Below, one piece after another: positions 8,636 to 28,509 of a stretch of DNA of 60,157 nt. Below the pieces are notes generated by a model, which was given only the letters and a program-made list of their open reading frames with translations, did no database searches and had not been told where the DNA came from. This stretch comes from Prevotella sp. (lineage in GTDB: Bacteria > Bacteroidota > Bacteroidia > Bacteroidales > Bacteroidaceae). Every line of letters starts with the position of its first letter. Position 1 is the first letter of the stretch. The stretch spans positions 1-60,157 of the forward strand of contig JAFSNR010000035.1 in NCBI GenBank assembly GCA_017443345.1, in the 5' to 3' direction. A program made the position numbers and the translations under genes.

Positions 8636-8795
8636 GCAAAGGTACTGCAAATTGTTTGAATAACACATCTATTTACTTGCATTTTGTTTGTTAAAAACGC
8701 TTCAAATTGACAATTTGTAAACCTTAAAGCGTGTATTGCTTACCTTTTGCTTTCACTTTGTATATAAAATCTACCATTTATTAGCAAACTGTTAT
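8636..8795 (-). promoter_or_regulatory. glnN control region with the shared four-box layout
   Basis: The -7 box TACCTTTGC runs 8644 to 8636. Upstream on the minus strand are box D (GCGTTTTTAACAAACAAAA, from 8700), box C (TTTACAAATTGTCAA, from 8721), box B (CAAAGTGAAAGCA, from 8760) and box A (ATAACAGTTTGC, from 8795). The same boxes occur at the same offsets upstream of glnB, pyrG and dapF. Box C is a dyad, TTTACA-N3-TGTCAA. Confidence 0.75.
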
Positions 8796-8805
8796 CGGAC
8801 ACATA

Positions 8806-8844
8806 AACAAAAAATCCTCCCCCTACCATCACGATAAGGGGAGG
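8806..8844 (-). terminator. Rho-independent terminator after the outer-membrane protein gene
   Basis: CCTCCCC (from 8844) pairs with GGGGAGG (to 8816) around a short loop, and the minus strand then reads ATTTTTTG. It lies 17 bases after the stop at 8861 and closes the glnB-amtB-porin unit. Confidence 0.8.
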
Positions 8845-8860
8845 TGTTCACCTGGAAAGA

Positions 8861-9565
8861 TCAGGGCTGCAGCGTAAACCCGAAAACCAGGTAGCCTTTC
8901 TGTGAACAAGGGTTGCCCACAATCTGTCCGAAGACAGGTATTGAGAACGAATCCGTCACTTTTATTTCCTTCGTGGCTTTCAGCGCCAGGTTGGTCACAG
9001 CAAAACCATTTGTGTCGTATAAGGTGGTGGCCCAAGGGACGATACCGGCTGTAGCAGTCCAGTCGACTGTGGCAAGTTTGAATGGGACGGCCACTTCCGC
9101 ATAACTGCTGTAAGCGCGTTTATCGTCCTTATTGGTGCCATCGTTGCCTCCAAAGTATGTAAACCACTGTATGCTGGCCACTCCGAAGTCGTAGCCGATG
9201 TTGGCCTCGAACATGTGGTTTGTACTGTTGGCTTCGTATTTGAAGTAGCGTCCATCAGGATCGAGTCCTTCGCTGAACCAATAGTCCGTGATGCCGATAT
9301 TGAAACCACCAGTGGCAAAAGCCAGTGTCAGGTCGAACTCCTTCACATCGTCAGGGTCGGTCAGTCCATAGCTGCCCCATGCCGAGAGAGAAAGCCCTTT
9401 ATAGCCAATGCCGAGTGTAGGCTGTACGGCGGCGCTTCCACAATCCAGACCACGCCAGATATAACTGCTTACCAAATCGGCCGCTACTGTTGTCTCTACT
9501 TTATCCTGTGCCGTAGCACTATATCCTGTAGCGATCATCATCGCCATTAAAACAATCTTTTTCAT
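8861..9565 (-). CDS. Outer-membrane beta-barrel protein (TorF-like porin family)
   Basis: 234 residues with a clear signal peptide (MKKIVLMAMMIATGYSATAQ). The mature part is made of alternating aromatic/small-residue strands (VSSYIWRGLDCGSAAVQPTLGIGYKGLSLSAW style, kept in short form) and ends in a barrel-like GYLVFGFTLQP. It resembles small putative porins of the TorF type, but the match is by general pattern only. It is third in the glnB-amtB unit, 40 bases after amtB, with a terminator behind it. The position suggests a role in letting ammonium or small nitrogen compounds cross the outer membrane; that role is inferred from context. Confidence 0.7.
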   Translation of the reverse strand: MKKIVLMAMMIATGYSATAQDKVETTVAADLVSSYIWRGLDCGSAAVQPTLGIGYKGLSLSAWGSYGLTDPDDVKEFDLTLAFATGGFNIGITDYWFSEGLDPDGRYFKYEANSTNHMFEANIGYDFGVASIQWFTYFGGNDGTNKDDKRAYSSYAEVAVPFKLATVDWTATAGIVPWATTLYDTNGFAVTNLALKATKEIKVTDSFSIPVFGQIVGNPCSQKGYLVFGFTLQP

Positions 9566-9570
9566 AATTT

Positions 9571-9602
9571 CTCTAAACTTTAAACTCTAAACTCTAAACT
9601 TT
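9571..9602. repeat. TAAACTC heptamer repeat between amtB and the porin gene
   Basis: Four 7-base units of TAAACTC type fill most of the 40-base gap and would lie in the leader of the porin message. Confidence 0.6.
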
Positions 9603-9605
9603 TCT

Positions 9606-10859
9606 TTAGTTGTAGCAAAGCTCTCCATGTTCGTAAACGTCGAGACCCTCTTCCTCAATGCGCTTGTTAACACGCAGACCATGCAGTTTCTTGATGCCAT
9701 AGAACAGAGCGAAACCACAGGCGGCAGCCCAAAGGTCGATGACGAGGATGCCAAAGCACTCAGCAGCGAAGAATCCCCAACCGCCTCCGTAGAAAGCGCC
9801 GTTAGATGTAGACAGCAGACCTGTCATCAGCGTACCCAGAATACCGCATACACCGTGTACTGAAGAAGCACCAACGGGGTCGTCAATATGCAGCTTGTGG
9901 TCGATAAACTCGATGGCATAGACCAGTACGATACCGCAAACCAGACCGATGATGATAGCACCTGTGGGTGATACCAGGTCACAACCTGCCGTAATACCTA
10001 CCAAACCTGCCAGCACACCGTTGAGCGTCAGTGAGAGCGATGGCTTGCCGTACTTGATATAGGTGAGGAACATCGTAGCCACACCACCTGCAGCGGCAGC
10101 AAGGTTGGTGGTCAGGAAGACGTGCGAGATAGCAATGCGGTTCACCTCACCACTGGCAGCCAGCTGCGAACCTGGGTTGAAACCGAACCATCCGAGCCAG
10201 AGGATGAATACACCCAGAGCGGCCATAGCGAGGTTGTGACCAGGAATAGCGTTGCTCTTCTTGTCAGCACTGTATTTGCCGATACGGGGACCCAGTGCCA
10301 AGGCACCAATCAGCGCCAGCACACCACCTACGCTGTGTACGATGGCAGAACCTGCAAAATCGTGGAACACGTCGCCAAAGGTCGTCATCATAAAGCTGTC
10401 AGCAGCATCGTTGCAGAGCCAGCCGCCGCCCCACGTCCAGTGACCCTCTATGGGATAGATAAACAGCGAGATCACTGCACTGTAAACGAGGTACATCGAG
10501 AACTTCGTGCGCTCAGCCATCGCACCGCTGACGATGGTGGCAGAGGTGGCACAGAACACCGTCTCGAAAATCAGGAAACCTTCTACGGGAAGGTCACCCT
10601 TGTAGAAACTCAGGTCGCCCCAGTTAGGCATACCGATAAAGCCTGCACCCTCGCTTCCAAACATAAAGCCGAAGCCGAGGAAGAAGAATAACAACGAGCC
10701 GAACATAAAGTCGACAAAGTTCTTCATCAGGATGTTCGCCGTGTTCTTACTACGCGTAAAACCTGCTTCACACAGCGCAAAGCCTGGCTGCATCCAGAAA
10801 ACCAACATGGCTGCCAATAGCATCCATACAGTATCGAGTGATAATCCAATTTCGTTCAT
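9606..10859 (-). CDS. amtB: Ammonium transporter AmtB
   Basis: A 417-residue inner-membrane ammonium channel with about 11 membrane helices. The pore twin histidines are in DFAGSAIVHSVGG and SSVHGVCGILGT. Other Amt signatures are ALCEAGFTRSKNTANILMKN near the start and WLGWFGFNPGSQLAASG. The start MNEIGLSLDTVWMLLAAM has no cleavable signal, as in the cytoplasmic-start Bacteroidetes group. It lies 48 bases after glnB. The PII protein normally blocks this channel when nitrogen is plentiful, which fits the pairing. Confidence 0.95.
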   Translation of the reverse strand: MNEIGLSLDTVWMLLAAMLVFWMQPGFALCEAGFTRSKNTANILMKNFVDFMFGSLLFFFLGFGFMFGSEGAGFIGMPNWGDLSFYKGDLPVEGFLIFETVFCATSATIVSGAMAERTKFSMYLVYSAVISLFIYPIEGHWTWGGGWLCNDAADSFMMTTFGDVFHDFAGSAIVHSVGGVLALIGALALGPRIGKYSADKKSNAIPGHNLAMAALGVFILWLGWFGFNPGSQLAASGEVNRIAISHVFLTTNLAAAAGGVATMFLTYIKYGKPSLSLTLNGVLAGLVGITAGCDLVSPTGAIIIGLVCGIVLVYAIEFIDHKLHIDDPVGASSVHGVCGILGTLMTGLLSTSNGAFYGGGWGFFAAECFGILVIDLWAAACGFALFYGIKKLHGLRVNKRIEEEGLDVYEHGELCYN

Positions 10860-10888
10860 ATCCTAAAAGTTTTGTGTTTGTTATCCTA

Positions 10889-10917
10889 ATTATTCACTAT
10901 TCACTGTTCACTTTTTA
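10889..10917. repeat. ATTCACT heptamer repeat between glnB and amtB
   Basis: Three 7-base units (ATTCACT, ATTCACT, GTTCACT) in the 48-base gap between glnB and amtB. Confidence 0.6.
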
Positions 10918-11255
10918 TCTTTAAGAACAGTGTCGCCGTTCTCGCCAGTACGGATGGACCATGTGTCTAACACTTCACTCACGAAGATGCGACCGTCGCC
11001 AACCTCGCCTGTATGGGCTACCTGCAGAATCACTTTCACCGTTGGGGCTACCAGGATGTCGCGGCACACGATGGTGATAGCGACGCGCTCAATGACGTCC
11101 GTTGAATATTGTACGCCGCGGTAGATGCGCTCCTGTCGGCTCTGGCCGATACCATGTACGTCGTGGTACTCAAACCAGTCGATGTCGGATGATAGCAAAG
11201 CTGCTTTCACCTCCTCGAACTTCGTCTTGCGGATAATTGCTTCAATCTTTTTCAT
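10908..11255 (-). CDS. glnB: PII nitrogen regulatory protein
   Basis: 115 residues, the normal PII length (112-120). It senses 2-oxoglutarate and ATP/ADP and controls AmtB and other targets. Visible parts are the N-terminal MKKIEAIIRKTKFEEVKAAL, a T-loop around GIGQSRQERIYRGVQY that keeps the two tyrosines used for modification or contact, and the B-loop TGEVGDGRIFV. The T-loop is less typical than in proteobacteria (GQSRQERIY rather than GRQKGHTELY), so uridylylation should not be assumed. It is first in the unit with amtB and could equally be called glnK. It is driven by the TACCTTTGC promoter at 11330-11322. Confidence 0.95.
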   Translation of the reverse strand: MKKIEAIIRKTKFEEVKAALLSSDIDWFEYHDVHGIGQSRQERIYRGVQYSTDVIERVAITIVCRDILVAPTVKVILQVAHTGEVGDGRIFVSEVLDTWSIRTGENGDTVLKDKK

Positions 11256-11321
11256 ACCTTTTTACCTTATTAAATTAATACTAAGCCCTCTTATTGGGTT
11301 ACAATTTGTTGTTTTGACGAT

Positions 11322-11480
11322 GCAAAGGTATGACGTTTTGATAGAAATACAAACAAAATGCTTTCGTTTTGATTGTTAAAAACGCACACAACTATCAAAA
11401 TGTAAACATTTCAAGGCTGATGCATGTCTTTCTGCTATCACTTTGCCTCATAATCCTGTCATGATGTTACAAAGTGTTAG
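11322..11480 (-). promoter_or_regulatory. glnB-amtB control region with the shared four-box layout
   Basis: The -7 box TACCTTTGC runs 11330 to 11322. Box D GCGTTTTTAACAATCAAAA starts at 11385, box C TTTACATTTTGATAG at 11406, box B CAAAGTGATAGCA at 11445 and box A CTAACACTTTGT at 11480. The stretch from TGTGTGCG through GAAAGCATT (about 33 bases around box D) is identical to that upstream of pyrG. Confidence 0.8.
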
Positions 11481-11520
11481 TTTTGATTATTTTGTGCGCG
11501 GACACAGACATTCCTGATGC

Positions 11521-11557
11521 AACAAAAAAATCCGCGAAACCTCAACTGGTTTCGCGG
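11521..11557 (-). terminator. Rho-independent terminator after dapL
   Basis: Perfect 10-base arms CCGCGAAACC and GGTTTCGCGG with a 6-base loop, followed on the minus strand by ATTTTTTTG. It lies about 30 bases past the dapL stop. Confidence 0.9.
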
Positions 11558-11585
11558 AATATCAATTGGATAATAAAGAAATTTG

Positions 11586-12821
11586 TCAACCTTTACTCCA
11601 TGCCTTGATGCGTTCCAGGGCTTCTTCGGTCTTCTCGTGACTGCCAAAGGCGGTGAAGCGGACATAACCCTCGCCTGAGGGACCGAAGCCGACACCGGGG
11701 GTGCAGACGACATTGGCACCATAGAGCAGGGCCTCGAAGAATTGCCATGAACCCATGCCGTCGGGGGTACGCATCCATACGTAGGGTGCATTCTCACCTC
11801 CGTAGCACTCGTAGCCGAGCGAGCGCAACATGTCGAGCATTCTCTTTGCATTCTGCATGTAGTAGTCGACGGTAGCCTTGACCTGAGCCTTGCCCTCTGG
11901 CGAGTAGATGGCCTCGGCGGCACGCTGGCTGATATAGCTGCAACCGTTGAATTTCGTACATTGGCGACGCAGCCACAACTGGTTGAGCGAGATGCGCTCG
12001 CCCTCGAAGGTGCTGACGGTGACCTCTTTAGGCACGATGGTATAGCCGCAGCGAACGCCGGTGAAACCTGCCGTCTTAGAATACGAACGGAACTCGACGG
12101 CACACTTGCGGGCTCCACGAATCTCGTAGATAGAATGGGGGATCTTCGGATCCTGGATGTAGGCCTGATAGGCGGCATCGTAGAGGATCAGGGCATCGTT
12201 CTTCAGGGCGTAGTTCACCCACTTGCGCAATTCCTGCTTGCTAATGACCGTTCCCGTGGGGTTGTTGGGATAGCAGAGATAGATGACATCGACAGGACGA
12301 CCTTTGGGTAGCTCGGGAATGAAGCCGTTCTCAGCCTTGGTGGGCATATAGCGCACGTTCGTCCAGCGACCATCCTTGAATACACCGCAACGGCCAATCA
12401 TCACGTTAGAGTCGATATAGACGGGATAGATAGGGTCGGTGACACCGATGAAGTTATCCCAGTGGAGCAGTTCCTGGAAGTTACCTGTGTCGGACTTCGC
12501 GCCGTCATTAATAAAAACCTCGTCGATGTCGAGATGGATGCCACGGGGCAGGAAGTCGTTCTTCAGGATAGCCTCGCGCAGGAAATCGTAACCCTGCTCA
12601 GGACCGTAACCACGGAATCCCTCAGCGGTAGACATCTCGTCGACAGCCTTGTGCATGGCCTCAGTGACGGCAGGACACAGTGGCTGGGTGACGTCGCCGA
12701 TGCCGAGACTGATAACGTCGGCACCCGAGTGCATCACCTTGAAGGCATTGACCTTCTTGGCAATGTCAGCGAACAGGTAATTGTTCTGGAGGTTCAGGAA
12801 GTGGATGTTTACTAATGCCAT
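11586..12821 (-). CDS. dapL: LL-diaminopimelate aminotransferase
   Basis: A 411-residue class I/II PLP-dependent aminotransferase that converts tetrahydrodipicolinate to LL-diaminopimelate with glutamate as amino donor, bypassing the acylated route to lysine and peptidoglycan. The PLP lysine is in SYSKTAGFTGVRCGY. Other family features are the N-terminal INIHFLNLQNNYLFADI-like start, ISLGIGDVTQPLCPAV and YLCYPNNPTGTVISK. Length matches the family (about 410). It lies 28 bases after dapF in the same unit and ends at a strong terminator. It uses glutamate, which may explain why its promoter shares the nitrogen layout. Confidence 0.95.
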   Translation of the reverse strand: MALVNIHFLNLQNNYLFADIAKKVNAFKVMHSGADVISLGIGDVTQPLCPAVTEAMHKAVDEMSTAEGFRGYGPEQGYDFLREAILKNDFLPRGIHLDIDEVFINDGAKSDTGNFQELLHWDNFIGVTDPIYPVYIDSNVMIGRCGVFKDGRWTNVRYMPTKAENGFIPELPKGRPVDVIYLCYPNNPTGTVISKQELRKWVNYALKNDALILYDAAYQAYIQDPKIPHSIYEIRGARKCAVEFRSYSKTAGFTGVRCGYTIVPKEVTVSTFEGERISLNQLWLRRQCTKFNGCSYISQRAAEAIYSPEGKAQVKATVDYYMQNAKRMLDMLRSLGYECYGGENAPYVWMRTPDGMGSWQFFEALLYGANVVCTPGVGFGPSGEGYVRFTAFGSHEKTEEALERIKAWSKG

Positions 12822-12824
12822 GTG

Positions 12825-12860
12825 TATTTACGATTTGACGATTTACAATTTACGATTTAT
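12825..12860. repeat. GATTTAC heptamer repeat between dapF and dapL
   Basis: About five 7-base units of the GATTTAC/GATTTGAC type span the dapF-dapL gap and run into the 3' end of dapF. Confidence 0.6.
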
Positions 12861-13665
12861 CTATTTCGACCTCACCGTCGAAGACGAATTCAGCGGGACC
12901 GGTCATATAGACGTGATGATCACTCTCGCACAGTTCGATGTTGAGCGTGCCGCCGTCCATGACTATCTGCGACTGGCGATCAGCACGACCTGTGACGAAG
13001 GCGGCAACAGCGGTGGCGCAGGCGCCGGTACCGCAGGCTTGGGTGATGCCGCTGCCACGCTCCCAGACGCGAGTGCGGATAATTCCATCATTTTCCACGC
13101 GAGCAAACTCGATATTGCAGCGCTGCGGGAAGGCCGGATGATACTCAAGGATGCGGCCCGTCTCACCAACTTGGTCCACATTGTCCGTGAAGATGACGTA
13201 ATGTGGATTGCCCATCGACACAAAAGTGCCCTGGGCGAGACCACGTGAAGGTATGAACTGCTCTTCATTCTCAAACACAGGTTCGAGCATATCCACCGTC
13301 ACACTCTCCACGATACCGTCTTCGACGTGCAGACTCAACGTCTTGATACCTGAGAGGGTCAGCAGACGGATCTCTGTCTTATCCGTCAGCCCACGCTCAA
13401 ACAGAAACTTGCCGATGCAACGACTGGCATTGCCACACATCATGGCCTCCGAGCCGTCCGCATTGAAAATGCGCATGGAGAAATCTGTTTCAGGCACAAG
13501 CGACTTGTCAATCAGTACCAGACCATCAGAGCCGATACCCTTATGGCGATCGCTCCAGGCGATGGCTGCAGCCTGTGGGTCGGCAATCTCATTCTCTATC
13601 ATATTGATATAGATGTAGTCATTGCCGCAACCATGCATCTTGGTAAATCTGATTTTCTTTGTCAT
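12850..13665 (-). CDS. dapF: Diaminopimelate epimerase
   Basis: 271 residues. It interconverts LL- and meso-diaminopimelate, the product of the neighbouring DapL reaction. The two catalytic cysteines are in [13 protein letters not shown] and [12 protein letters not shown]. The start motif [15 protein letters not shown] is typical. The frame is open upstream to 13791, but the -7 box TACCTTTGC at 13724-13716 makes [12 protein letters not shown] at 13665 the start. Its first cysteine motif reads NASRC where many homologs have NGARC, a small and probably neutral change. First gene of the dapF-dapL unit. Confidence 0.95.
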
Positions 13666-13715
13666 ATTGCTTCTTTTTGGGTGAAGTTTGCTGCCGTTTT
13701 GTAACTTTTTCGGGT

Positions 13716-13876
13716 GCAAAGGTATGCATAAAGTTAGAATCCACAAAGAAAACCGTCCTTTTTGTTTGTAGAAAATGAGGAAATTTGACACATTGTAAAC
13801 TAATCAGCCGAAAAACACGTTTGTTTGCTTACAACTTGCTTTTATATCCAGCGATTATCTTACAATGTGTCAAATT
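13716..13876 (-). promoter_or_regulatory. dapF-dapL control region with the shared four-box layout
   Basis: The -7 box TACCTTTGC runs 13724 to 13716. Box D-like TCATTTTCTACAAACAAAA starts at 13778, box C TTTACAATGTGTCAA at 13799, box B-like CAAGTTGTAAGCA at 13838 and box A TTGACACATTGT at 13873. Boxes A and C here form a perfect 17-base inverted repeat, 13782-13798 and 13860-13876. Box sequences are more divergent than in the other three regions but the spacing is the same to within a base. Confidence 0.65.
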
Positions 13877-13890
13877 ACTTCTTGTTTCAT

Positions 13891-15123
13891 TTACGAACCT
13901 ACGTCGAAGTCTCCGCTACTGGGAGCCATAGCCGTAACTGTGAACCAGACCGTGCCGTCATGATAGACCACCAGGTTGTGGCCAGCCTCGACGTTCAGAC
14001 CCGTGAACGAAGCACCGTTGGCATCGTGGCTGGTGGGGTTGATGGCATCGCCCGTACCATCCACCTTGGCTGTGAACACCACGTCGCCGAGATTGGTACC
14101 ACTGACGGCTACGCTGGTAACAGGTGCTGTAGCAGTGACGTTGCCTCCAGCAATGCTTTGGCTGACACCGTTGATGGTGGCCGAGGTGTTGTAGCTGGGC
14201 TCGCCAGGTGTCACGCCACCGCTACCGCCACCAGGAGTGACATCTTCGGTAGAACCAGTGCCGCTTGTGCCTGCGTTGTTCAGGTAGAACTCTGACTCCA
14301 TGTCGATGTCGTAAGCAGCATAGCTCATTTCGACGGCCTTTGACAGACTGCACAGGTCGCTGCCAAGACCAGCCTCGTTGAGCACCAGTTGACAGTTGCT
14401 GCGGAACCAGCCGCCACTCTTGTCCTTGCGGCTGACGATGATACCGGCGGCAACGACATCACCGCCACGGCCAAGCACGAAGTTGAAGTGGTCGGTGTCG
14501 AACTCGAAAGTAGAGAAGTTCAGGCGATTCTTCCAGTTGCTGCAGGGGAACTCGCCCTCGCTGTTCACGATCTCAGTCGACATGGGCGCACCAGAACCGT
14601 CGGCATTACGAGGGTTGAGCACGATGCGGGCGTAGTTCACCTCGTACTTGCCCTGGCGCTTCTGCACGGTCACGAACGTCAGCTGGTCACCACGCTGCAA
14701 GCCCCATGTGTTAATGAGATCAGCATAGGAGCGGCTGGGAGAGTTGACATAGGCCACATGCCCCTGAGTGGCATCGATGGCAACATCAATCTCGGGCAGA
14801 TGACCCTGCGAGATGATGATTGCGTAAGGCGACCACTTCTCGCTCTGGAGAGGAATGAACTGGAAGAACTGGCTGAGGCTCTGACCTAAAGCCTGAAGCG
14901 TTGACGCACGCTCACGGAGGTACTTGAGGTTCAATTTCTTGAACTTGTTCATACACTGAAGGCCGTTCGAGAAGCCTTCAAACGAGTGGTTGCAGATGTC
15001 CTTCAGCATCACGTAGGCCATGACAACCACTTTCATCAAGATGCGCTGCACTGTCTGTGCATTCGTCTTGGGATTCTTTACTCGGCGACTAGAAGCGCCG
15101 TTTGTTGTTGCATTGTTTACCAT
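13891..15123 (-). CDS. Uncharacterised Bacteroidales protein with Gly/Thr-rich linker and beta-rich C-terminal domain
   Basis: 410 residues, family not recognised with confidence. The N-terminus is basic (NNATTNGASSRRVKNPKTNAQTVQR), and the first 220 or so residues recall the many Bacteroidales proteins that begin VKNPKTNAQ and are sometimes grouped near DUF6266; this is an impression only. No signal peptide is seen. Residues about 300-318 form a flexible linker (EDVTPGGGSGGVTPGEPS), followed by a roughly 90-residue beta domain with Ig/IPT-like spacing (VTSVAVSGTNLGDVVF, ending HDGTVWFTVTAM). It may be a structural or surface-complex protein. Its likely promoter (TACATTTGC at 15369) gives an unusually long leader that includes an 11-bp repeat array. 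Confidence 0.6.
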   Translation of the reverse strand: MVNNATTNGASSRRVKNPKTNAQTVQRILMKVVVMAYVMLKDICNHSFEGFSNGLQCMNKFKKLNLKYLRERASTLQALGQSLSQFFQFIPLQSEKWSPYAIIISQGHLPEIDVAIDATQGHVAYVNSPSRSYADLINTWGLQRGDQLTFVTVQKRQGKYEVNYARIVLNPRNADGSGAPMSTEIVNSEGEFPCSNWKNRLNFSTFEFDTDHFNFVLGRGGDVVAAGIIVSRKDKSGGWFRSNCQLVLNEAGLGSDLCSLSKAVEMSYAAYDIDMESEFYLNNAGTSGTGSTEDVTPGGGSGGVTPGEPSYNTSATINGVSQSIAGGNVTATAPVTSVAVSGTNLGDVVFTAKVDGTGDAINPTSHDANGASFTGLNVEAGHNLVVYHDGTVWFTVTAMAPSSGDFDVGS

Positions 15124-15189
15124 AACTTTAATAATTTAATGGTATCACTACTTAAATCCTACCCTTGGCGACCGAGGTTTTCTAGTGCT

Positions 15190-15299
15190 CAATTGGAGTT
15201 CGATTGGAGTTCAATTGGAGTTCGATTGGAGATGGATTGGACTTCGATTGGAGATCGATTGGAGATCTCTTGGAGATCTCTTGGAGATCAATCGGAGTT
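15190..15299. repeat. Array of ten 11-bp units (CGATTGGAGTT type)
   Basis: Ten contiguous 11-base units, such as CAATTGGAGTT, CGATTGGAGAT and CTCTTGGAGAT, with TTGGA kept in nearly all. It lies between the gene ending at 13891 and its probable promoter at 15369, so it would be transcribed as leader. Unit length is close to one helical turn. Confidence 0.85.
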
Positions 15300-15360
15300 T
15301 AGCTTGAACTCTAGCTTGGGCAACATGTGAAAGACCAGTCATCCACATCGGGATTCTGGG

Positions 15361-15369
15361 GCAAATGTA
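15361..15369 (-). promoter_or_regulatory. -7 box upstream of the 11-bp array
   Basis: TACATTTGC on the minus strand fits TAnnTTTG. It is the best visible promoter for the 13891-15123 gene and implies a leader of about 235 bases. Confidence 0.4.
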
Positions 15370-15390
15370 CGATGATTAAACGGACAGAAA

Positions 15391-15421
15391 AACAAAAAAA
15401 AGGACTGTTTTTCGGCAGTCC
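15391..15421 (-). terminator. Rho-independent terminator after the 15.4-16.1 kb gene
   Basis: GGACTG and CAGTCC arms around an 8-base loop, then a minus-strand run of eight T and TGTTTTTC. It lies 37 bases after the stop at 15458. Confidence 0.8.
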
Positions 15422-15463
15422 AGTACTAATCCAGTGATAATCCAGTTTTAGTCCAGTTTACTT
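15420..15463. repeat. Second array of 11-bp units (CCAGTnnTAAT type)
   Basis: Four 11-base units beginning CCAGT (CCAGTACTAAT, CCAGTGATAAT, CCAGTTTTAGT, CCAGTTTACTT). Same period as the array 120 bases away but a different sequence; it abuts the stop codon of the next gene. Confidence 0.7.
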
Positions 15464-16108: not shown

Positions 16109-16160
16109 TTTTGTTTCTTTTATTGGCCAACAATAAGACAAACATTTCATTAACCTATGC

Positions 16161-16169
16161 GCAAAGGTA
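16161..16169 (-). promoter_or_regulatory. -7 box for the 15.4-16.1 kb gene
   Basis: TACCTTTGC on the minus strand, 53 bases before the ATG at 16108. Confidence 0.55.
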
Positions 16170-16275
16170 GTAAAATAAATCACATTCTGAGCATTCGGAA
16201 CTGAAAAAGTGACCATTTTCACAACTTTTTATGTGATTTTTGCAGGTTTGGAGTACGGAATTTGAGATTTTTGTG

Positions 16276-16284: not shown

Positions 16285-16289
16285 ACCTG

Positions 16290-17238: not shown

Positions 17239-17661
17239 ATGGATAATAGTATAACAGAGGGCTTCCCTTATTCTAAACAAGACTTTGGCAATCTTTGTGC
17301 CACTGTTGATTTGCTGATTCTCAACGTATGTAAGATTGCTGGTCAGCAGTATACTGATTCACAAGTCGCACAAATATTAAAAGGCTATCAAAGTCTGAAA
17401 TATCCTTTACTCGCTATTTGGGAGTATTATGGTTTTGGTGAAATCAGCGAGATTTCCAGTGGTTTAACCTCTACGGCGCTTTATCAAGCATCAAAAATAG
17501 TTATGACAGATACTCTACGTGATTTAATAAGTGGTATATCATCACAGAATCCATTTGATTTCTATGGCAAAATCAACAATTCAGATAAGGTTGTGGAAAA
17601 ATTACTAATAGTATATAAACATTTACTTGCAAATCTGCAATCTGGCAGATTAATACTATAA
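17239..17661 (+). CDS. Uncharacterised small protein
   Basis: 140 residues, AT-rich gene 20 bases after the previous one and 17 before the next, so probably cotranscribed. Sequence begins MDNSITEGFPYSKQDFGN and looks helical and cytoplasmic with no motif I recognise. It starts with MDN like the preceding protein. Small acidic proteins in such arrays are often immunity proteins, but nothing in the sequence proves that here. Confidence 0.6.
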   Translation: MDNSITEGFPYSKQDFGNLCATVDLLILNVCKIAGQQYTDSQVAQILKGYQSLKYPLLAIWEYYGFGEISEISSGLTSTALYQASKIVMTDTLRDLISGISSQNPFDFYGKINNSDKVVEKLLIVYKHLLANLQSGRLIL

Positions 17662-21458: not shown

Positions 21459-21505
21459 AGAAACACCCATTAGAAAGGTGGAGATACTATGTCACCACTT
21501 CTGTT

Positions 21506-22273
21506 ATGACAGCGAAGGAGATCATACAACACATGGAGTCGTTGCAGAATGACGAGCAGCGGCGGATACTCATGAGGTTCTTTAAGACGGGTCCTGGTGA
21601 ATACGGCGAGGGTGATGAGTTTTTGGGACTGAAGGTCCCACAGACGCGTGAGGTGGTCAAGGCCGTTCCAAAGGATTTCCCTCTGAGCGAGGTGCCTGAG
21701 TTGCTGATGAGCCATTGGCATGAGGTGAGACTCTGTGGGCTGCTGATCCTTGTGGCAAAGTTCGAACGATTAGCGACGAAGAAATTGGAGCGCGATGAGA
21801 ATGCCATCAAGGGCCGCGACGAAATCCTGACACTTTATCTGCAATACGCTGAGCAGGCGAACAACTGGGATCTCGTTGACCTCTCTGTCCACAAGATTCT
21901 CGGCCATTGGCTGCTTTTGCCTACTCATCTGGGGAGTGACAATAAAGACCTTAGAATAAACATTCTCGATTCTTTAGCGCAGAGTGATAACCTTTGGAAG
22001 CAGCGTATGAGCATTGTCTGCTCGTGGAAGACCTCGCAGATGGGCGATCCATCGTGGTGCCTACGCTATGCCGAGATTCATCTGCATCATCCCCACGACC
22101 TGATGCACAAGGCCGTAGGATGGATGCTCCGTGAGATGGGCAAGCGTGTCTCGATGGACCTCCTCCGCGACTTCCTCCGTCAGCATGCCCACGAGATGCC
22201 TCGTACGATGCTTCGCTATGCCATTGAAAAGATGCCGGAGCGGGAACGGCAGTATTGGCTGGCTTATGATTAG
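21506..22273 (+). CDS. DNA alkylation repair protein (AlkD-like HEAT-repeat glycosylase)
   Basis: 255 residues, helical HEAT-like repeats. Family features include YGEGDEFLGLKVPQTREVVK near the start, SHWHEVRLCGLLILV, the segment NNWDLVDLSVHKILGHWL (with the catalytic-type Trp and Asp of AlkD), and RYAIEKMPERERQYWL at the end. AlkD removes positively charged alkylated bases such as 7-methylguanine. It ends with a 4-base overlap against gltD on the other strand. Confidence 0.85.
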   Translation: MTAKEIIQHMESLQNDEQRRILMRFFKTGPGEYGEGDEFLGLKVPQTREVVKAVPKDFPLSEVPELLMSHWHEVRLCGLLILVAKFERLATKKLERDENAIKGRDEILTLYLQYAEQANNWDLVDLSVHKILGHWLLLPTHLGSDNKDLRINILDSLAQSDNLWKQRMSIVCSWKTSQMGDPSWCLRYAEIHLHHPHDLMHKAVGWMLREMGKRVSMDLLRDFLRQHAHEMPRTMLRYAIEKMPERERQYWLAYD

Positions 22274-23628
22274 CGCTGGAGGAAAGTAGCGACCTTTGCG
22301 GCGGTCTGCTTACCGCTGGCCATAGCGCGGACTACAAGCGACGCACCATTGGCAGAGTCGCCACAGACGAAGACATTCTTGGGGTACTCCGGATGTTCAG
22401 GCTTGAGGAATCCCATGGCCAGCAATACGAGTTCTGCCTTGATGATTTCAGGCTTGCCCTTTTCTACCATGATAGGACGACCACCATTGGGATTGGGTTC
22501 CCAGTCGATTTCCTGTACCTTTACGCCAGTCAGTTTGCCATCCTTACCCAAGAACTCCAGGGTGTTGATGTTCCAACGTCGTGTACAACCTTCCTCGTGC
22601 GAAGACGTGGTCTTGAGGGTGCGAGGCCAGTTGGGCCAAGGATTCTGAGGATCTTCTGGACCTTCCACGGGCTTAGGCATAATCTCGATCTGAGTGACGC
22701 TCTTGCAACCCTGACGATGGGCCGTACCGATACAGTCGCTACCCGTATCGCCACCACCAATCACGAGGACATCCTTACCCTTAGCGGTGATACGTTCGTC
22801 CTTGCTAAATTCCATACCAGCCAGGACGCGATTCTGCTGAGAGAGCAGCTCGAGGGCGAAGTGAACCCCTTTCAGTTCTCGGCCTGGAGCTTTGAGATCA
22901 CGGGCAGTTGGAGTACCAGTTGAGATAACGACTGCGTCGTAATCAGAGGTTAGAGGTGAAAGGTCAGAGGTTAGAGATATCTCAGCTCCGTATTTGAACT
23001 CGATGCCTTCCTGCTCCATCAGGGCGATACGGCGGTCGATGATGGCCTTGTTCAGTTTGAAGTTGGGGATACCATAGCGGAGCAAGCCACCTGCGGCTTC
23101 GTTCTTCTCGAAGACAGTTACCTGATAGCCCATGAGGTTCAGGTCGTTGGCAGCAGCTAAACCAGCAGGGCCGGCACCAATCACAGCCACCTTCTTGCCA
23201 TTACGCTGGATGTCGGTTCGTGGTTGAATAAACCCTTCGCGGAAAGCAGCCTCAATGATGGCAGCCTCGTCTTCTCGGTTCGTTGTCGGTTCGTGGTTGA
23301 AACGGTTCAGCACGCAGGCTTTTTCACAGAGTGCAGGACAGATACGCCCCGTAAACTCCGGGAAGGGATTGGTGCTTGTCAAGAGCTTATAAGCCAACTC
23401 CCAGTCGCCTTTATATAGGGCGTCGTTCCACTCTGGGGCCTTGTTGCCCAGAGGACAAGCCCAGTGGCAGAAGGGTACGCCACAGTCCATGCAGCGCGAG
23501 GCCTGCAGTTTGCGTTCGCGGGTGTTCAGCGTCTGCTCTACCTCGCTGAAGTCGTGGATTCTATCTTGTAATGGACGATAACCGGCCTCTTGGCGGTGTA
23601 TCTCCAGAAATGCTTTTGGATTTCCCAT
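22270..23628 (-). CDS. gltD: Glutamate synthase small subunit
   Basis: 452 residues. It oxidises NADPH and passes electrons through FAD and Fe-S clusters to GltB for glutamate synthesis from glutamine and 2-oxoglutarate. The N-terminal cysteines for two [4Fe-4S] clusters are in ASRCMDCGVPFCHWACPLGN and ICPALCEKACV. The FAD motif is VAVIGAGPAGLAAA near residue 150, and the NADPH motif VLVIGGGDTGSDC near 290. Residues about 220-230 (SLTSDLSPLTSD) are encoded by a 7-bp-period repeat inserted in frame. It lies 87 bases after gltB. The N-terminal GltB frame break affects its partner, not this gene. Confidence 0.95.
   Translation of the reverse strand: MGNPKAFLEIHRQEAGYRPLQDRIHDFSEVEQTLNTRERKLQASRCMDCGVPFCHWACPLGNKAPEWNDALYKGDWELAYKLLTSTNPFPEFTGRICPALCEKACVLNRFNHEPTTNREDEAAIIEAAFREGFIQPRTDIQRNGKKVAVIGAGPAGLAAANDLNLMGYQVTVFEKNEAAGGLLRYGIPNFKLNKAIIDRRIALMEQEGIEFKYGAEISLTSDLSPLTSDYDAVVISTGTPTARDLKAPGRELKGVHFALELLSQQNRVLAGMEFSKDERITAKGKDVLVIGGGDTGSDCIGTAHRQGCKSVTQIEIMPKPVEGPEDPQNPWPNWPRTLKTTSSHEEGCTRRWNINTLEFLGKDGKLTGVKVQEIDWEPNPNGGRPIMVEKGKPEIIKAELVLLAMGFLKPEHPEYPKNVFVCGDSANGASLVVRAMASGKQTAAKVATFLQR
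22944..22978. repeat. AGAGGTT heptamer repeat inside gltD
   Basis: Four to five 7-base units (AGAGGTT, AGAGGTG, AAAGGTC, AGAGGTT) in frame in gltD, encoding SLTSDLSPLTSD in a loop just before the conserved YDAVVISTG. Confidence 0.7.
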
Positions 23629-23636
23629 TGCTATAT

Positions 23637-23712
23637 TTGACTATTTTACTATTTCACTATTTTTCTATTTTCTTGCCCAATTGTCTAATTGTAAATTGTC
23701 CAATTGTCAAAT
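23637..23712. repeat. Short-period A/T-rich repeats between gltB and gltD
   Basis: Two tracts of 7-8 base period, one of the TTTACTAT/TTTCACTA type and one of the CAATTGTC/TAATTGT type, fill almost the whole 87-base gap. They are likely transcribed but not translated. Confidence 0.6.
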
Positions 23713-23715
23713 AAA

Positions 23716-25893
23716 TCAGTAGTCGCGCTGGATGTTTGCAATCTTTTCTTGCAACTTCTTGTTTTGCTCCTCCTGGAGGACTCGTTTGTACTCGATAGGT
23801 ACTACCTGGATAAAGTCCTCGCAGTAGCGGTTCCAGTTGTCGAGCATGCGTCCAGCCAGAGCCGAACCTGTATGTAGGTAGTGCTGGCGGATCAGTTCGA
23901 GCAGTTCCTTACGACTGACGCTGTCCTCAACCAGGTTGATCTCCACCATATCCATGTTACAGAAGTAGTCGAATGTGTGATCTGGATCGTAGACGTAAGC
24001 CACACCGCCTGACATACCAGCAGCGAAGTTGCGGCCAGTCTTGCCGAGTACGACGACACGTCCACCAGTCATATATTCGCAGCAGTGGTCGCCTGCACCT
24101 TCAATCACAGCGATGGCACCCGAGTTACGCACGCCAAAGCGCTCGCCCACCTTACCATTGATGTAGAGTTCGCCTGAGGTGGCACCATACAGACCAGTAT
24201 TACCAGCGATGATGTTGTCCTCGGCGTGGAAATCCTCACCACTTCGTGCTGGAGGCAGAATCGAGATGCGACCGCCTGAGAGGCCCTTTCCGAAATAGTC
24301 GTTACACTCACCCTCGAGTTTGAGGTTAATGCCCTTCACGGCGAAGGCGCCAAACGACTGACCGGCTGAACCCTTGAACTTGATGTTAATCGTATTGTCA
24401 GGCAGTCCTGCCTCGCCATATTTTTTGGCAATAACGCCAGAGAGCATGGTGGTCACGGCACGGTCGGTATTCTTGATAGCATAGTCGAGTGTCACCTCTT
24501 CGCCATCGTTGATAGCCTTTTCGGCAGCCTTGATAATCTCTTCGTCCTTCACGCCGCTGACCTTGGTGAAAGCACCACGATCCCAATACAATGGTTTATC
24601 TGTTTCGGGTTTGTGTAGCAGACGGGCAAAGTCAATGGTCTTTTGCTTATCGGTGGCATTGGCGGTATCGACCTCAATCAACTCTGTATGACCGATGATT
24701 TCTTTCAGGCTGTGTACACCCATCTCAGCGAGGTACTCGCGCACCTGTTCGGCCAGGAAGGTGAAGAAGTTCACCACATACTCGGCACGTCCCTGGAAGT
24801 GCTTGCGCAGTTCAGGATTCTGGGTGGCCACACCCATCGGACAGGTATTGGTATTACACTTGCGCATCATCACACAGCCCAGCACAATCAGGGGCAGTGT
24901 ACCAAACGAGAACTCGTCGGCACCCAGCATCGCCATGATAATCACGTCCTTGGCGGTCTTCAGCTGTCCGTCGGTCTGCAGACGAACCTGATTGCGCAGG
25001 CCGTTCTTCACGAGCGTCTGTTGTGTCTCGGCCAGACCGATTTCAGGTGAGATACCTGCGAATCGCATAGAACTTGCAGGGCTTGCACCCGTACCACCCT
25101 CGGCACCAGAGATAACGATGAGGTCGGCCTTGGCCTTAGCCACACCTGCGGCAATGGTTCCCACGCCACTCTCGGCTACGAGCTTTACGCTGACTGCAGC
25201 TGTTGGGTTGATGTTCTTCAGGTCGAAGATGAGCTGCGCCAGGTCCTCGATGCTATAGATATCGTGATGAGGTGGGGGAGAGATGAGCGAGATACCAGGG
25301 ATCGCATTACGTGTCTTGGCGATAATCTCGTTGACCTTGAAGCCAGGCAGCTGTCCGCCTTCACCAGGCTTAGCACCCTGTGCCACCTTGATCTGTATTT
25401 CTTCGGCATTCACCAGGTATTCGGCAGTCACACCAAAACGTCCACTGGCTATCTGCTTGGTCTTACTTGAGAGACTCACGCCGTCCACCTCTGTGTGATA
25501 GCGGGCGTTGTCCTCACCACCTTCACCAGTGTTCGAGCGTGCACCCAGTTTGTTCATCGCCAGTGCCAGCGCCTCATGGGCCTCGATGCTCAGCGCACCA
25601 AAGCTCATGGCACCGGTAACAAAATGCTTCACGATGCTCTCAACGGGCTCTACCTCGTCGATAGGCGTTGGCTTAGCAGCCTTCTTAAACTTAAAGAAGT
25701 CACGCAGGAAGATGGGGCTCTCCTTCTCGTCAACGATCTTTGCCCAAGCCTTAAATTTATCGTAGTTGCCCTGACGGGTAGCCAATTGCAACTGGGCGAT
25801 TGTCTCTGGGTTCCAGGCGTGCTTGATACCATCCTTGCGCCATGCAAAGAGACCCTGGTTTTTGAGAGGTGAGAGGTGAGAGAAATGCTTCAT
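23716..25893 (-). CDS. gltB: Glutamate synthase large subunit, C-terminal fragment (frame-broken gltB)
   Basis: The second half of GltB in a frame shifted by one base from the first half. It reads MKHFSHLSPLKNQGLFAWRK and continues with the FMN-binding synthase domain (AMSFGALSIEAHEALALAMN, SGRFGVTAEYLVNA, ISPPPHHDIYSIEDLAQL, SGAEGGTGASPASS), the 3Fe-4S cysteines in MMRKCNTNTCPMGVATQ, and the C-terminal GXGXG helix (GLYGATSGELYINGKVGERF, AAGMSGGVAYVYD). Alone it lacks the amidotransferase domain. The ATG at 25893 is internal to the original gene. Removing one 7-base unit at 25864-25882 would join it to the N-terminal part and give about 1,505 residues, the usual GltB size. Confidence 0.9.
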   Translation of the reverse strand: MKHFSHLSPLKNQGLFAWRKDGIKHAWNPETIAQLQLATRQGNYDKFKAWAKIVDEKESPIFLRDFFKFKKAAKPTPIDEVEPVESIVKHFVTGAMSFGALSIEAHEALALAMNKLGARSNTGEGGEDNARYHTEVDGVSLSSKTKQIASGRFGVTAEYLVNAEEIQIKVAQGAKPGEGGQLPGFKVNEIIAKTRNAIPGISLISPPPHHDIYSIEDLAQLIFDLKNINPTAAVSVKLVAESGVGTIAAGVAKAKADLIVISGAEGGTGASPASSMRFAGISPEIGLAETQQTLVKNGLRNQVRLQTDGQLKTAKDVIIMAMLGADEFSFGTLPLIVLGCVMMRKCNTNTCPMGVATQNPELRKHFQGRAEYVVNFFTFLAEQVREYLAEMGVHSLKEIIGHTELIEVDTANATDKQKTIDFARLLHKPETDKPLYWDRGAFTKVSGVKDEEIIKAAEKAINDGEEVTLDYAIKNTDRAVTTMLSGVIAKKYGEAGLPDNTINIKFKGSAGQSFGAFAVKGINLKLEGECNDYFGKGLSGGRISILPPARSGEDFHAEDNIIAGNTGLYGATSGELYINGKVGERFGVRNSGAIAVIEGAGDHCCEYMTGGRVVVLGKTGRNFAAGMSGGVAYVYDPDHTFDYFCNMDMVEINLVEDSVSRKELLELIRQHYLHTGSALAGRMLDNWNRYCEDFIQVVPIEYKRVLQEEQNKKLQEKIANIQRDY

Positions 25894-28240
25894 CGTGAAG
25901 TCTTATAGCATCGCGAGCAATCTCCTTCAGTCCTACACCACCAATGGTGCTCACCTCCGTACCGAAGTAGCGACGCAGCAGGTCTTCACTCAGTCCAATG
26001 CTCTCGAAAATCTTAGCACCACGATAGCTGCGGATGGTCGATATACCCATCTTCGACATAATCTTCTTCAGACCCTTATCTACCGCCTTGATGTAGTTCT
26101 TCTCGGCTGTAGCATACTCCTCCTGAATCTTGTGGCGCTTCACCAGATCATCGAGCACTGCAAACGTCATATACGGACACAGTGCACTGGCACCATAGCC
26201 CAGCAACAGCGCCGCATGCATCACCTCGCGGATCTCTCCGCTCTCAACAATAAGGGCGGTCTGTACACGCTTGCCCACAGAAATCAGATAATGATGCACG
26301 GCACTTACAGCCAACAAACTAGGAATAGCAGCATGCGTCTCATCGATATCGCGATCGCTCAGGATAATGTAGTTCACACCCTCGTCCACACTTGCCTCTG
26401 CCTGATGACACAGATTGTCCAATGCCTGACGCAAGCCTTCCTCACCCTTACTCATTTCAAAGAGGATGGGTAGCTTCTTGGTGTTAAAGCCTTTATAGCG
26501 AATGTTACAAAGTATATCAAGTTGTGTGTTGGTCAGCACAGGCTGTGGCAGACGCACCATCTTACAGTTCGATGCATCGGGCGTCAGAATGTTGGTTCCT
26601 ACGGCGCCGATATACTCCGTCAGACTCATCACAAGTTCCTCACGTATAGGGTCGATGGCGGGGTTAGTAACCTGTGCAAACTGCTGACGGAAATAGTTGA
26701 ACAGCACCTGTGGACGGTCTGAGATAACTGCCAACGGTGTGTCGTTACCCATGGCAGCTACAGGCTCCTGACCTGCTGTGGCCATCGGGATGATAGTCTT
26801 GTCGATGTCCTCCTGACCGAAGCCGAAGGTAACGAGTTTCTGCTCCAAGTCCTTCACGCCGTTCTCTACGTGGCGACCGCTCTTCAACTTCTCCAGCTGC
26901 ACGCGGTTCTCGTTCAGCCATTCGCGATAAGGATGTGCCTTAGCCAACTGTTCCTTAATCTCACCATCGTAGTAGATCTTTCCCTCCTGGGTGTCAATCA
27001 GCAGAATCTTACCTGGCTGCAAACGGCCCTTCGATACCACGTCGCCAGGTTCAAAGTCCATCACGCCAACCTCGCTGGCTACCACCATCATACCCTGTTT
27101 GGTAATGGTGTAGCGGCTGGGGCGCAGACCGTTTCTATCGAGCATTCCGCCGGCATAGCGACCATCGCTAAACAACAGCGCTGCAGGACCGTCCCATGGC
27201 TCCATCAGGATAGAGTGATACTCGTAAAATGCCTTCAAATCCTCAGAAATCGGGTTCTTGTCGTTGAAGCTCTCCGGCACCAGAATGGCCATCGCCTGAG
27301 GCAAACTTAATCCACTGAGCATCAGGAACTCGAACACATTATCCAGCGAAGCACTATCACTCATGCCCTCCTGCACGATGGGGCGCAGATCCTTGATATC
27401 TCCTAAGGCTTCGCTGTTCAGCACACTCTCGCGAGCCTTCATCCAGCCACGGTTACCGCGAATGGTGTTAATCTCACCGTTGTGGGCCAACAGGCGGAAA
27501 GGCTGTGCCAGCTTCCATTTGGGGAAGGTGTTTGTGCTAAAACGGGAGTGCACCAGCGCCAATCCACTTGTAAAGTAATCGTTCGACAGGTCAGGGAAAT
27601 AACGTCGCAACTGTCCGCTGGTCAGCATTCCCTTGTAGATGATATTCTTGTTCGACAACGAACAGATGTAAAAATCCTCGTCGTCGATACGGTTTTCTAT
27701 GCGCTTGCGAACCTTATATAATATACGCTCGAATACAGGCACCTGCTCATCGGCGATACCCGTCACGAAAATCTGCTTGATGTCGGGCTCCACTTCACGC
27801 GCGGCAGCACCAAGCACTTCAGGATTAGTAGGCACAGCGCGCAGGTGCATCAGGGTCAGCCCCTCGCGTTCAATCTCCTCGATCATCACGCTCAGAATGT
27901 CCTGCTGCGCCTTCTCGTCTTTCGGCAGGAATACCAAACCAGTGCCATACTTTCCTTTTTCAGGCACAGGAATACCCTGCAACAGGATAAACTCGTGTGG
28001 AATCTGAACCATGATACCGGCACCGTCACCAGTCTTGTCGCGAGTCTCAGCTCCGCGATGTTCCATGTTTTCCAGCACCCTTAGGGCATTGTCCACCAGT
28101 TCATGACTCTTTCCGCCGTGGATGTTCACAACCATTCCCACGCCGCAAGCATCATGCTCGTACTGGCTCTGATAAAGCCCTTGTTGCGAATATGCTTCTT
28201 TTTGAATTCTTTCTAACGTTTGAAGTTTACATTTTGTCAT
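25757..28240 (-). CDS. gltB: Glutamate synthase large subunit, N-terminal fragment (frame-broken gltB)
   Basis: First half of GltB: the glutamine amidotransferase class II domain with the nucleophile Cys in YEHDACGVGMVVNIHGG (propeptide about 30 residues), then HNGEINTIRGNRGWM and the central domain (LFNYFRQQFAQVTNPAIDPIRE). True homology runs to IARDAIRLHDEA; the last 45 or so residues are out-of-frame readthrough, ending at 25757. The break lies at a GAGAGGT repeat. As written, the cell would make a truncated GltB unless the repeat varies in length in the population. First gene of the gltB-gltD unit, facing pyrG. Confidence 0.9.
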   Translation of the reverse strand: MTKCKLQTLERIQKEAYSQQGLYQSQYEHDACGVGMVVNIHGGKSHELVDNALRVLENMEHRGAETRDKTGDGAGIMVQIPHEFILLQGIPVPEKGKYGTGLVFLPKDEKAQQDILSVMIEEIEREGLTLMHLRAVPTNPEVLGAAAREVEPDIKQIFVTGIADEQVPVFERILYKVRKRIENRIDDEDFYICSLSNKNIIYKGMLTSGQLRRYFPDLSNDYFTSGLALVHSRFSTNTFPKWKLAQPFRLLAHNGEINTIRGNRGWMKARESVLNSEALGDIKDLRPIVQEGMSDSASLDNVFEFLMLSGLSLPQAMAILVPESFNDKNPISEDLKAFYEYHSILMEPWDGPAALLFSDGRYAGGMLDRNGLRPSRYTITKQGMMVVASEVGVMDFEPGDVVSKGRLQPGKILLIDTQEGKIYYDGEIKEQLAKAHPYREWLNENRVQLEKLKSGRHVENGVKDLEQKLVTFGFGQEDIDKTIIPMATAGQEPVAAMGNDTPLAVISDRPQVLFNYFRQQFAQVTNPAIDPIREELVMSLTEYIGAVGTNILTPDASNCKMVRLPQPVLTNTQLDILCNIRYKGFNTKKLPILFEMSKGEEGLRQALDNLCHQAEASVDEGVNYIILSDRDIDETHAAIPSLLAVSAVHHYLISVGKRVQTALIVESGEIREVMHAALLLGYGASALCPYMTFAVLDDLVKRHKIQEEYATAEKNYIKAVDKGLKKIMSKMGISTIRSYRGAKIFESIGLSEDLLRRYFGTEVSTIGGVGLKEIARDAIRLHDEAFLSPLTSQKPGSLCMAQGWYQARLEPRDNRPVAIGYPSGQLR
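25864..25882. repeat. GAGAGGT heptamer repeat at the gltB frame break
   Basis: 2.7 units of GAGAGGT (CTCTCAC on the coding strand). The two gltB frames differ by one base, so loss of one 7-base unit restores a single frame reading HDEAFLSPLKNQGLFAW. Confidence 0.85.
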
Positions 28241-28280
28241 ATTATCCTTACTTTTACTTTCTTTTTGCCTGTTTACGGCT

Positions 28281-28289
28281 GCAAAGGTA
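28281..28289 (-). promoter_or_regulatory. -7 box for gltB-gltD
   Basis: TACCTTTGC on the minus strand, 41 bases before the gltB ATG at 28240. Farther upstream the minus strand reads TTTACAACAAAGTGATAG (from 28368), so box A of the pyrG region serves as a box-B-like site for gltB. Confidence 0.6.
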
Positions 28290-28350
28290 AATCAAAATGT
28301 TCGAATAAACAAGAAATATCTTACGTTTTTATTATTTAATTTTGTAGCAA

Positions 28351-28509
28351 CTATCACTTTGTTGTAAATTCCAGTAATTTTAAACCAAAATGTCAGCAAA
28401 ACAATATGAAACACCTGTTGATTCTTTACAATATGATATTTGTGTGCGTTTTTAACAATCAAAACGAAAGCATTCCCTTTGTCTAATTACCAAAATATAG
28501 TACCTTTGC
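28351..28509 (+). promoter_or_regulatory. pyrG operon control region with the shared four-box layout
   Basis: Box A CTATCACTTTGT at 28351, box B CAAAATGTCAGCA at 28386, box C TTTACAATATGATAT at 28425, box D GCGTTTTTAACAATCAAAA at 28446, and -7 TACCTTTGC at 28501-28509. The offsets between boxes match those upstream of glnN and glnB exactly (35, 39, 21, 55 or 56). It is shared with the divergent gltB. Confidence 0.8.

Follow-up and report, generated by a model that had tools for sequence, protein, structure and literature searches.

How is nitrogen assimilation controlled in a Prevotella sp. whose nitrogen genes share one promoter architecture? The question is raised by a stretch of 60,157 nt (GenBank assembly GCA_017443345.1, contig JAFSNR010000035.1), hereafter referred to as the window, in which four control regions, those of glnN, glnB-amtB, dapF-dapL and pyrG-purF-carAB-asnB, were described in an initial annotation as carrying the same ordered boxes A to D upstream of a common -7 element (TACCTTTGC). 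The module is real and conserved. Judging from the form and phasing of its boxes, the control regions are probably operators of an Lrp/AsnC-family regulator, with the protein referred to here as Lrp1 being the most likely candidate. Promoter positions are counted from the initial T of the -7 element.

Boxes and spacing in the window

Read on the transcribed strand, boxes A to D were located where they had been described in all four control regions. The 13-mers are invariably spaced by 31 bp (A to B) and 43 bp (B to C), which corresponds to the 35 and 39 bp given previously, the difference being due to the box limits used. The distance from C to D is 21 bp in all four promoters, and D lies 56 (glnN), 55 (glnB), 55 (pyrG) and 54 bp (dapF) upstream of the first T of TACCTTTGC, as derived from the positions of C. 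A composite of the last two boxes (C-N8-D), searched with up to three mismatches, yielded exactly four matches in the 60-kb window, each with zero mismatches, none in 100 dinucleotide shuffles of the window, and only the four window sites in the whole 4.16-Mb genome of the same organism. The common layout and its spacing were thus confirmed. Box D is present at glnN, glnB and pyrG and diverged at dapF (CATTTTCTACAAACAAAA), and the gene labels were correct except for their order in the title of the annotation: region 13716-13876 serves dapF-dapL and region 28351-28509 serves pyrG-purF-carAB-asnB.

A profile of the A-D layout was built from 29 sites by sequence alone. When applied to the genome of the window, it ranked the four window sites at the top (E 2.8e-22 to 1.5e-18), followed by a site at a second ammonium-transporter gene (amt2) on contig C25 (E 2.5e-9). 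The remaining matches had E values of 0.0015 or worse; the first of them overlaps a window site on the opposite strand, and the upstream region of gdhA is among the weak ones (E 0.516). Within the window, a fifth instance is provided by the gltB promoter, which diverges from that of pyrG and has boxes at -149, -106, -75, +19 and +50 from its own -7 element, three of them shared with pyrG.

In the 29 sites, A (reversed), B and C represent one 13-bp imperfect inverted repeat of 5-3-5 form, TTACA-N3-TGTMA, which explains why A resembles B and C reversed and agrees with the earlier proposal that one protein binds several sites. Box D consists of a T-tract and another copy of the 13-mer; the alternative of an IHF-like or purely AT-rich site was dropped after visual inspection. 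Copies of the 13-mer stand at -149, -118, -107, -75, -44 (within D), -13 and +19 in the window promoters, so that the description of four boxes was accurate as to A to D and an undercount as to the rest (-107, -44, -13 and +19). By promoter, glnB has a weak slot at -107, dapF has degenerate slots at -107 and -44, and pyrG has a degenerate slot at -107 and a weak one at -13. The same seven offsets, together with a lesser one at -139, stand out in 73 promoters chosen for an A-D site, with slots -13 and +19 lying outside the region used for their selection. A leader box at +18 to +20 (score of at least 6) was detected in 40 of these 73 promoters, compared with 8 of 438 background windows.

The layout and the comb in related genomes

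Matches to C-D (up to three mismatches) were obtained in 32 of 120 genomes of the genus, whereas the reversed pattern used as a control was matched in three. The search returned 30 loci, one being the window and 25 lying in front of pyrG, glnB, glnN, dapF or amt2. Four loci (L010, L011, L023 and L034) lacked a nitrogen-regulon homologue and were excluded from profile building as chance matches, and L018 was excluded as a duplicate of the glnN site of the window. Although C and D alone had been used for selection, A and B are conserved at fixed positions in the relatives, as is a T-run between them.

The profile gave 89 matches with E<=1e-4 in 22 genomes of the genus, 21 of which had been chosen for having a pattern match; some matches represent both strands of one site. 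By tblastn against a library of 18 proteins, 82 matches were assigned to window-type regulon genes or amt2 (13 of them through a divergent neighbour alone), one to the diaminopimelate dehydrogenase gene ddh (TIGR01921) and one to an Lrp/AsnC gene (lrp1). The other five were placed by their coordinates: three are situated immediately upstream of glnB, one corresponds to the amt2 locus L031, and the one left unassigned by tblastn lies upstream of glnB in G062. With 83 of the 89 matches assigned to nitrogen-regulon genes (the same 13 through a divergent neighbour), the proposed nitrogen-control module was borne out: the layout is kept in front of the same nitrogen genes in relatives, and neither a random spread nor a lack of conservation was seen in the 22 genomes. 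Under a stricter filter, at least 4 of 149 genomes of the family had a match at E<=1e-4, a lower bound for the A-D layout (24 candidates were scored per genome) that has little bearing on the wider arrangement of boxes.

This arrangement is a comb with a period of 31-32 bp, or three helical turns, and one extra-turn shift. It begins near -150, crosses the spacer between the -33 and -7 elements and ends near +30, and a T-rich stretch often precedes the next box. The fixed A-D layout is narrower than the mechanism: it was found upstream of glnB in 10 of 29 named loci with a close glnB, and many of the other 19 have boxes 31-32 bp apart in a plain comb. In 34 glnB promoters (the 29 loci and five added after their arrays had been seen), 46 box pairs were spaced by 31/32 bp and none by 33-38 bp. 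Among 213 distances of 15 to 140 bp, 126 fell on multiples of 31-32, compared with a mean of 0.6 and a maximum of 3 in 40 shuffles, and a second series (42/43, 73/74 and 105) was one helical turn longer. Of the comb slots at -138, -107, -75, -44, -13 and +19, 83 of 126 were filled in the 21 glnB promoters without an A-D layout (16 of the 29 loci and the five added by hand), or 64 of 96 when only the 16 were counted, and shifting the comb by 3 to 15 bp left 0-6 slots filled. One locus (L370) scored 0 in this test, the last -7-like match having served as its anchor.

Twenty aligned comb promoters have a mean ungapped identity of 41%, with 3 of 190 pairs exceeding 60%, while the box phase is kept; the common phase is therefore not a matter of simple sequence similarity. 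In 41 control upstream regions, a 31/32 pair was observed in five, all at the places of profile matches: one at lrp1, three at gdhA and one at ddh. The other 36 regions had no such pair. Combs anchored at a -7 element were also seen in Segatella copri, a Tannerella, Phocaeicola intestinalis, Candidatus Bacteroides intestinipullorum and one other member of the Bacteroidales. In 11 distant loci, hand-picked from 51 and with the best -7 chosen for each, 18 of 36 boxes fell on the comb; several Bacteroides loci among the 51 showed no chain of boxes.

Lrp1 as the candidate regulator

Sigma-54 promoters carry a -24/-12 element with the consensus TGGCAC-N5-TTGC, and operators of the MerR-type regulators GlnR and TnrA have the form TGTNA-N7-TNACA. 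Control by sigma-54/NtrC was rejected, as all five window promoters carry TACCTTTGC instead. Allowing up to two mismatches, 86 sigma-54 matches were counted in the window (60 expected), one of which overlaps a control region (8636-8650, two mismatches), and the single exact match lies at 17288-17302. GlnR/TnrA control was discarded as well, with one exact operator match in the window (54101; 1.15 expected) and none in the control regions.

Lrp-type sites are described in an archaeal review as imperfect repeats of 13-17 bp in same-face clusters at two or three helical turns, with autoregulation being common (PMC2995911). In the present array, the 13-bp inverted repeat and the spacing of 31/32 bp with its multiples and one-turn shift fit this type, and a box in the lrp1 promoter is a candidate site for autoregulation, so that the earlier statement that no described regulator shows such a pattern was not supported.

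Lrp1, whose copy in the genome of the window lies at G000:C196:36591-37049, has the domain structure of the Lrp/AsnC family, with an N-terminal AsnC-type helix-turn-helix (PF13404) and a C-terminal ligand/RAM domain (PF01037), both above cut-off in this copy and in that of genome G007. By sequence, the nearest protein of solved structure is AsnC (2cg4, E 5.9e-29), and Lrp1 is present in 110 of 120 genomes of the genus, including 56 of 57 good ones. Profile matches were obtained just upstream of lrp1 in G007 (E 1.2e-5) and G083 (E 0.0019); in G007, boxes stand at -64, -33 and +9, 31 and 42 bp apart. Promoters of lrp1 were taken from 108 of the 110 genomes, the matches in the other two being truncated; 35 of the 108 promoters were left unscored as they had no recognised start or usable -7. 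Among the 73 scored promoters, a box (score of at least 8) lies exactly 9 nt after the start of the -7 element in 45, with other offsets from 0 to 39 reaching at most 3. The +9 box overlaps the expected transcript start, a position that would fit the autorepression expected of such a regulator. At offsets 8 to 10, and without correction for kinship, 26 of the 31 genomes that have a close glnB (or amt2 sites) contain it, compared with 20 of 42 others. In other genera of the order, a +9 box was present at 6 of 29 loci (six without a recognised start), many of which share less than 60% identity and may be non-orthologues.

Several observations weigh against this assignment or against the reach of the comb. 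Of the scored genomes, 20 of the 42 in which no close glnB was counted retain the lrp1 box and 5 of the 31 in which one was counted lack it, and the eight scorable order-level loci with at least 65% identity are split into four with and four without it. Lrp1 is so widespread that its co-occurrence with glnB does not discriminate genomes with the array, and genome G101 (73% complete) contains array sites and the paralogue Lrp2 without an Lrp1 match. No regulator gene other than lrp1 was noticed directly downstream of a profile match, in a survey that included no systematic search for others. As for the comb, the 13-mer matrix was trained on boxes A to C, several slots are degenerate at dapF and pyrG, and the slots were derived from the same promoters in which they were later counted, but those from -107 to +19 coincide with the A-D set. 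Loci L336, L337 and L338 were left out of the comb test for want of a -7 element, and two of them show no array. Chains of at least three boxes occur in 7 of the 51 distant loci, with none in those from Flavobacteriia or Chlorobi.

From the array we infer binding by Lrp1, wrapping of the DNA, the effector and the sign of control at these promoters. Each 13-bp box would accommodate one dimer, and the recurrence at 31-32 bp would bring neighbouring dimers of an octamer onto the same side of the DNA, which would be wrapped around the protein. When the signal amino acid, glutamine at a guess, is plentiful and nitrogen thus sufficient, the octamer would cover the boxes at -13 and +19 and switch off the genes for ammonium uptake and the glutamine synthetase/glutamate synthase pathway. 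Once this amino acid drops, the complex would open and the upstream boxes A, B and C would assist RNA polymerase. Lrp1 would thereby act as a feast/famine switch on ammonium assimilation, working like Escherichia coli Lrp at gltB. Tentatively, and with slightly less than even confidence, this may extend to Prevotella and part of the Bacteroidales in general: one Lrp-type regulator would replace NtrC, GlnR and NtcA and pack the genes of the whole ammonium-assimilation regulon as nucleosome-like particles. Their three-turn comb would run across the core promoter and offer room for up to seven dimers, and the optional one-turn register shift (A-B versus the rest) may set the balance of activation and repression per promoter. 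With a candidate gene named, the operator defined and the targets listed, the question could be put to direct test in bacteria that dominate the rumen and gut, and the sharp comb would offer a clean natural system for octamer wrapping and promoter switching by Lrp.

It is unlikely that another paralogue, Lrp2 or Lrp3, or several jointly, bind the array and that the lrp1 box reflects cross-regulation. Each of 23 searched genomes has at least two Lrp-like matches, similar motifs are probably frequent among Lrp paralogues, and the sites of G101 coexist with Lrp2; against this, only 7 of the 23 genomes gave a match to Lrp2 (44-48% identity), and no box occupies the fixed place of that of lrp1 at the Lrp2 loci (seven, four with a -7 element) or Lrp3 loci (17 of 20 anchored). 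Somewhat less likely still is a regulator outside the Lrp family, such as a response regulator or a CRP/FNR-type protein, that binds the boxes and also controls lrp1. Phased sites are used by regulators of other families as well, and the promoters are of the ordinary TAnnTTTG type, both of which count in its favour; yet a comb of a 13-bp inverted repeat at 31-32 bp, running over about 170-200 bp through the promoter, matches what has been reported for Lrp-type proteins, and lrp1 is the one regulator gene noticed directly downstream of a profile match, in a survey without a systematic search for others. That a single promoter was recently duplicated, or that the similarity reflects the usual composition of Bacteroidales promoters with no common regulator, is highly improbable in spite of the stretch of about 30 identical nt around D in glnB and pyrG, as the sequence between the boxes differs while their phase is kept, in agreement with the initial annotation, and shuffles and shifted combs yield almost nothing.

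The proposed control by Lrp1 can be compared with known Lrp systems. The half-sites of the archaeal protein FL11 differ from those of the comb boxes. FL11 shares with the proposed system a dimer bound to a 13-bp palindromic site and an octamer on a long stretch of DNA, and differs in being archaeal and responding to lysine and arginine (PMC2995911). At gltBDF, E. coli Lrp exerts positive control over glutamate synthase through sites centred at -152, -215 and -246, whose distances of 63 and 31 bp form the same three-turn comb; these sites lie far upstream and act with IHF (PMC1784095), whereas the comb described here has sharp 13-bp boxes, continues through -13 and +19 and spans a whole ammonium-assimilation regulon. 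The glutamine-responsive Sa-Lrp of Sulfolobus acidocaldarius binds the control regions of gltB and gdhA and three regions of glnA, with a shortening of the DNA that suggests wrapping, and the two sites of another of its targets are about one helical turn further apart than those of gltB; in contrast to the present case, its site is AT-rich and bipartite, its promoters are archaeal, and gltB expression was unchanged in a deletion mutant under three conditions (PMC3584215). Ah-BarR of Acidianus hospitalis is an octamer with apparently wrapped DNA that represses its own gene, activates its target and accommodates two site spacings in one complex, but it is a beta-alanine regulator of one gene pair, with two- and three-turn spacings and no long comb (PMC10201364).

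The targets can further be compared with P. ruminicola 23, whose response to ammonium is led by the same genes: changes of 27- to 69-fold were recorded for amtB, its neighbour PRU_1977, glnK, asnB, glnN-2 and gltBD, and the 18 nitrogen genes listed include dapF, pyrG, purN and PRU_2042 (a diaminopimelate dehydrogenase) (PMC5552732). By name, the strong comb targets match eight of these 18 (amtB, glnK, asnB, glnN, dapF, gltB, gltD and pyrG), and gdhA, PRU_2042 and purN match weaker or single-genome targets; glnA, purT, cysK and four others match none. Expression of the nitrogen genes was higher on ammonium than on peptides (PMC5552732), which fits repression by amino acids. The sign of the ammonium response is ambiguous, the genes being said to rise at low ammonium in the results and at high ammonium in the discussion (PMC5552732), and this weighs against the proposal in that the study does not fix the direction of control. 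The sections of that study drawn on here name no regulator beyond PII, and the terms promoter and motif are absent from its main text (PMC5552732). No nitrogen-control regulator for Bacteroides or Prevotella was found in the open-access literature, with most subscription journals being outside this scope.

Coordinates and neighbouring genes

Table 1. Control regions, their elements and the associated genes in the window.
Feature	Position	Strand	Remarks
glnN control region	8613..8794	-	profile E 2.0e-20
glnN boxes (13-mer)	8782-8794, 8751-8763, 8740-8752, 8708-8720, 8677-8689, 8645-8657, 8613-8625	-	
glnN -7 element	8636-8644	-	TACCTTTGC
glnB-amtB-orf234 control region	11299..11479	-	profile E 2.8e-22
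glnB boxes	11467-11479, 11436-11448, 11425-11437 (weak), 11393-11405, 11362-11374, 11331-11343, 11299-11311	-	
glnB -7 element	11322-11330	-	
dapF-dapL control region	13692..13872	-	profile E 1.5e-18
dapF boxes	13860-13872, 13829-13841, 13786-13798, 13724-13736, 13692-13704	-	
dapF degenerate slots	13818-13830, 13755-13767	-	
dapF -7 element	13716-13724	-	
pyrG-purF-carAB-asnB control region	28352..28531	+	profile E 5.3e-20
pyrG boxes	28352-28364, 28383-28395, 28426-28438, 28457-28469, 28519-28531	+	
pyrG weak slots	28394-28406, 28487-28499	+	
pyrG -7 element	28501-28509	+	
gltB promoter (divergent)	28227..28438	-	-7 element TACCTTTGC at 28281-28289
gltB boxes in common with pyrG	28426-28438, 28383-28395, 28352-28364	-	
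gltB own boxes	28258-28270, 28227-28239	-	at gltB start (second box)
glnN (type III glutamine synthetase, GSIII)	6378..8591	-	PF12437 GSIII_N (269 bits), PF18318, PF00120
orf234 (secreted or outer-membrane-like protein)	8861..9565	-	adjoins amtB, place kept in relatives
amtB (ammonium transporter)	9606..10859	-	TIGR00836, 417 bits
glnB (PII protein)	10908..11255	-	position beside amtB; PII models below equivalog cut-offs (77 of 202 bits)
dapL	11586-12821	-	TIGR03542 and TIGR00652 for dapL/dapF pair
dapF	12850-13665	-	start assigned separately from the family match
gltD	22270-23628	-	TIGR01317
gltB (two overlapping frames)	25757-28240, 23716-25893	-	PF00310, PF04898; PF01645, PF01493
pyrG, purF-like, carA-carB fusion, asnB operon	28535..36505	+	

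Inspected by eye, the product of orf234 has a signal-peptide-like start, contains an SSYIWRG motif and ends much like an outer-membrane barrel; it matched no Pfam or NCBIfam family and shares 48-77% identity with its counterparts in 17 relatives. Going by position alone, it is possibly homologous to PRU_1977, which ranks among the genes of P. ruminicola 23 that respond most to ammonium. Among 72 genomes with a PII match, 23 (such as G042, G045 and G052) contain only a distant form (54-65% identity), present as two copies in three genomes, which we take to be possibly of the NifI type.

The two frames of gltB overlap at 25757-25893 (-), whereas gltB in relatives is a single frame of about 1500 aa, indicating a frameshift or an assembly error. 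In the pyrG leaders of L013, L016, L024, L027, L028 and L032, an inverted repeat (CCATAAA...TTTATGG), absent from the pyrG leader of the window, follows shortly after the -7 element and places the start codon in a possible hairpin within a very short leader. The purF-like gene (30213-31952, +) was scored as frame 30099-31952, which reached 160 bits against a purF cut-off of 350; its product shows weak glutamine-amidotransferase domains alone in Pfam and appears to be a diverged paralogue. In the carA-carB fusion (31949-34828, +), carA is joined to the first half of carB alone (profile positions 3-542 of 1052), giving a half-size carbamoyl-phosphate synthase within a glutamine-amidotransferase operon, and similar fused or split forms occur in relatives.

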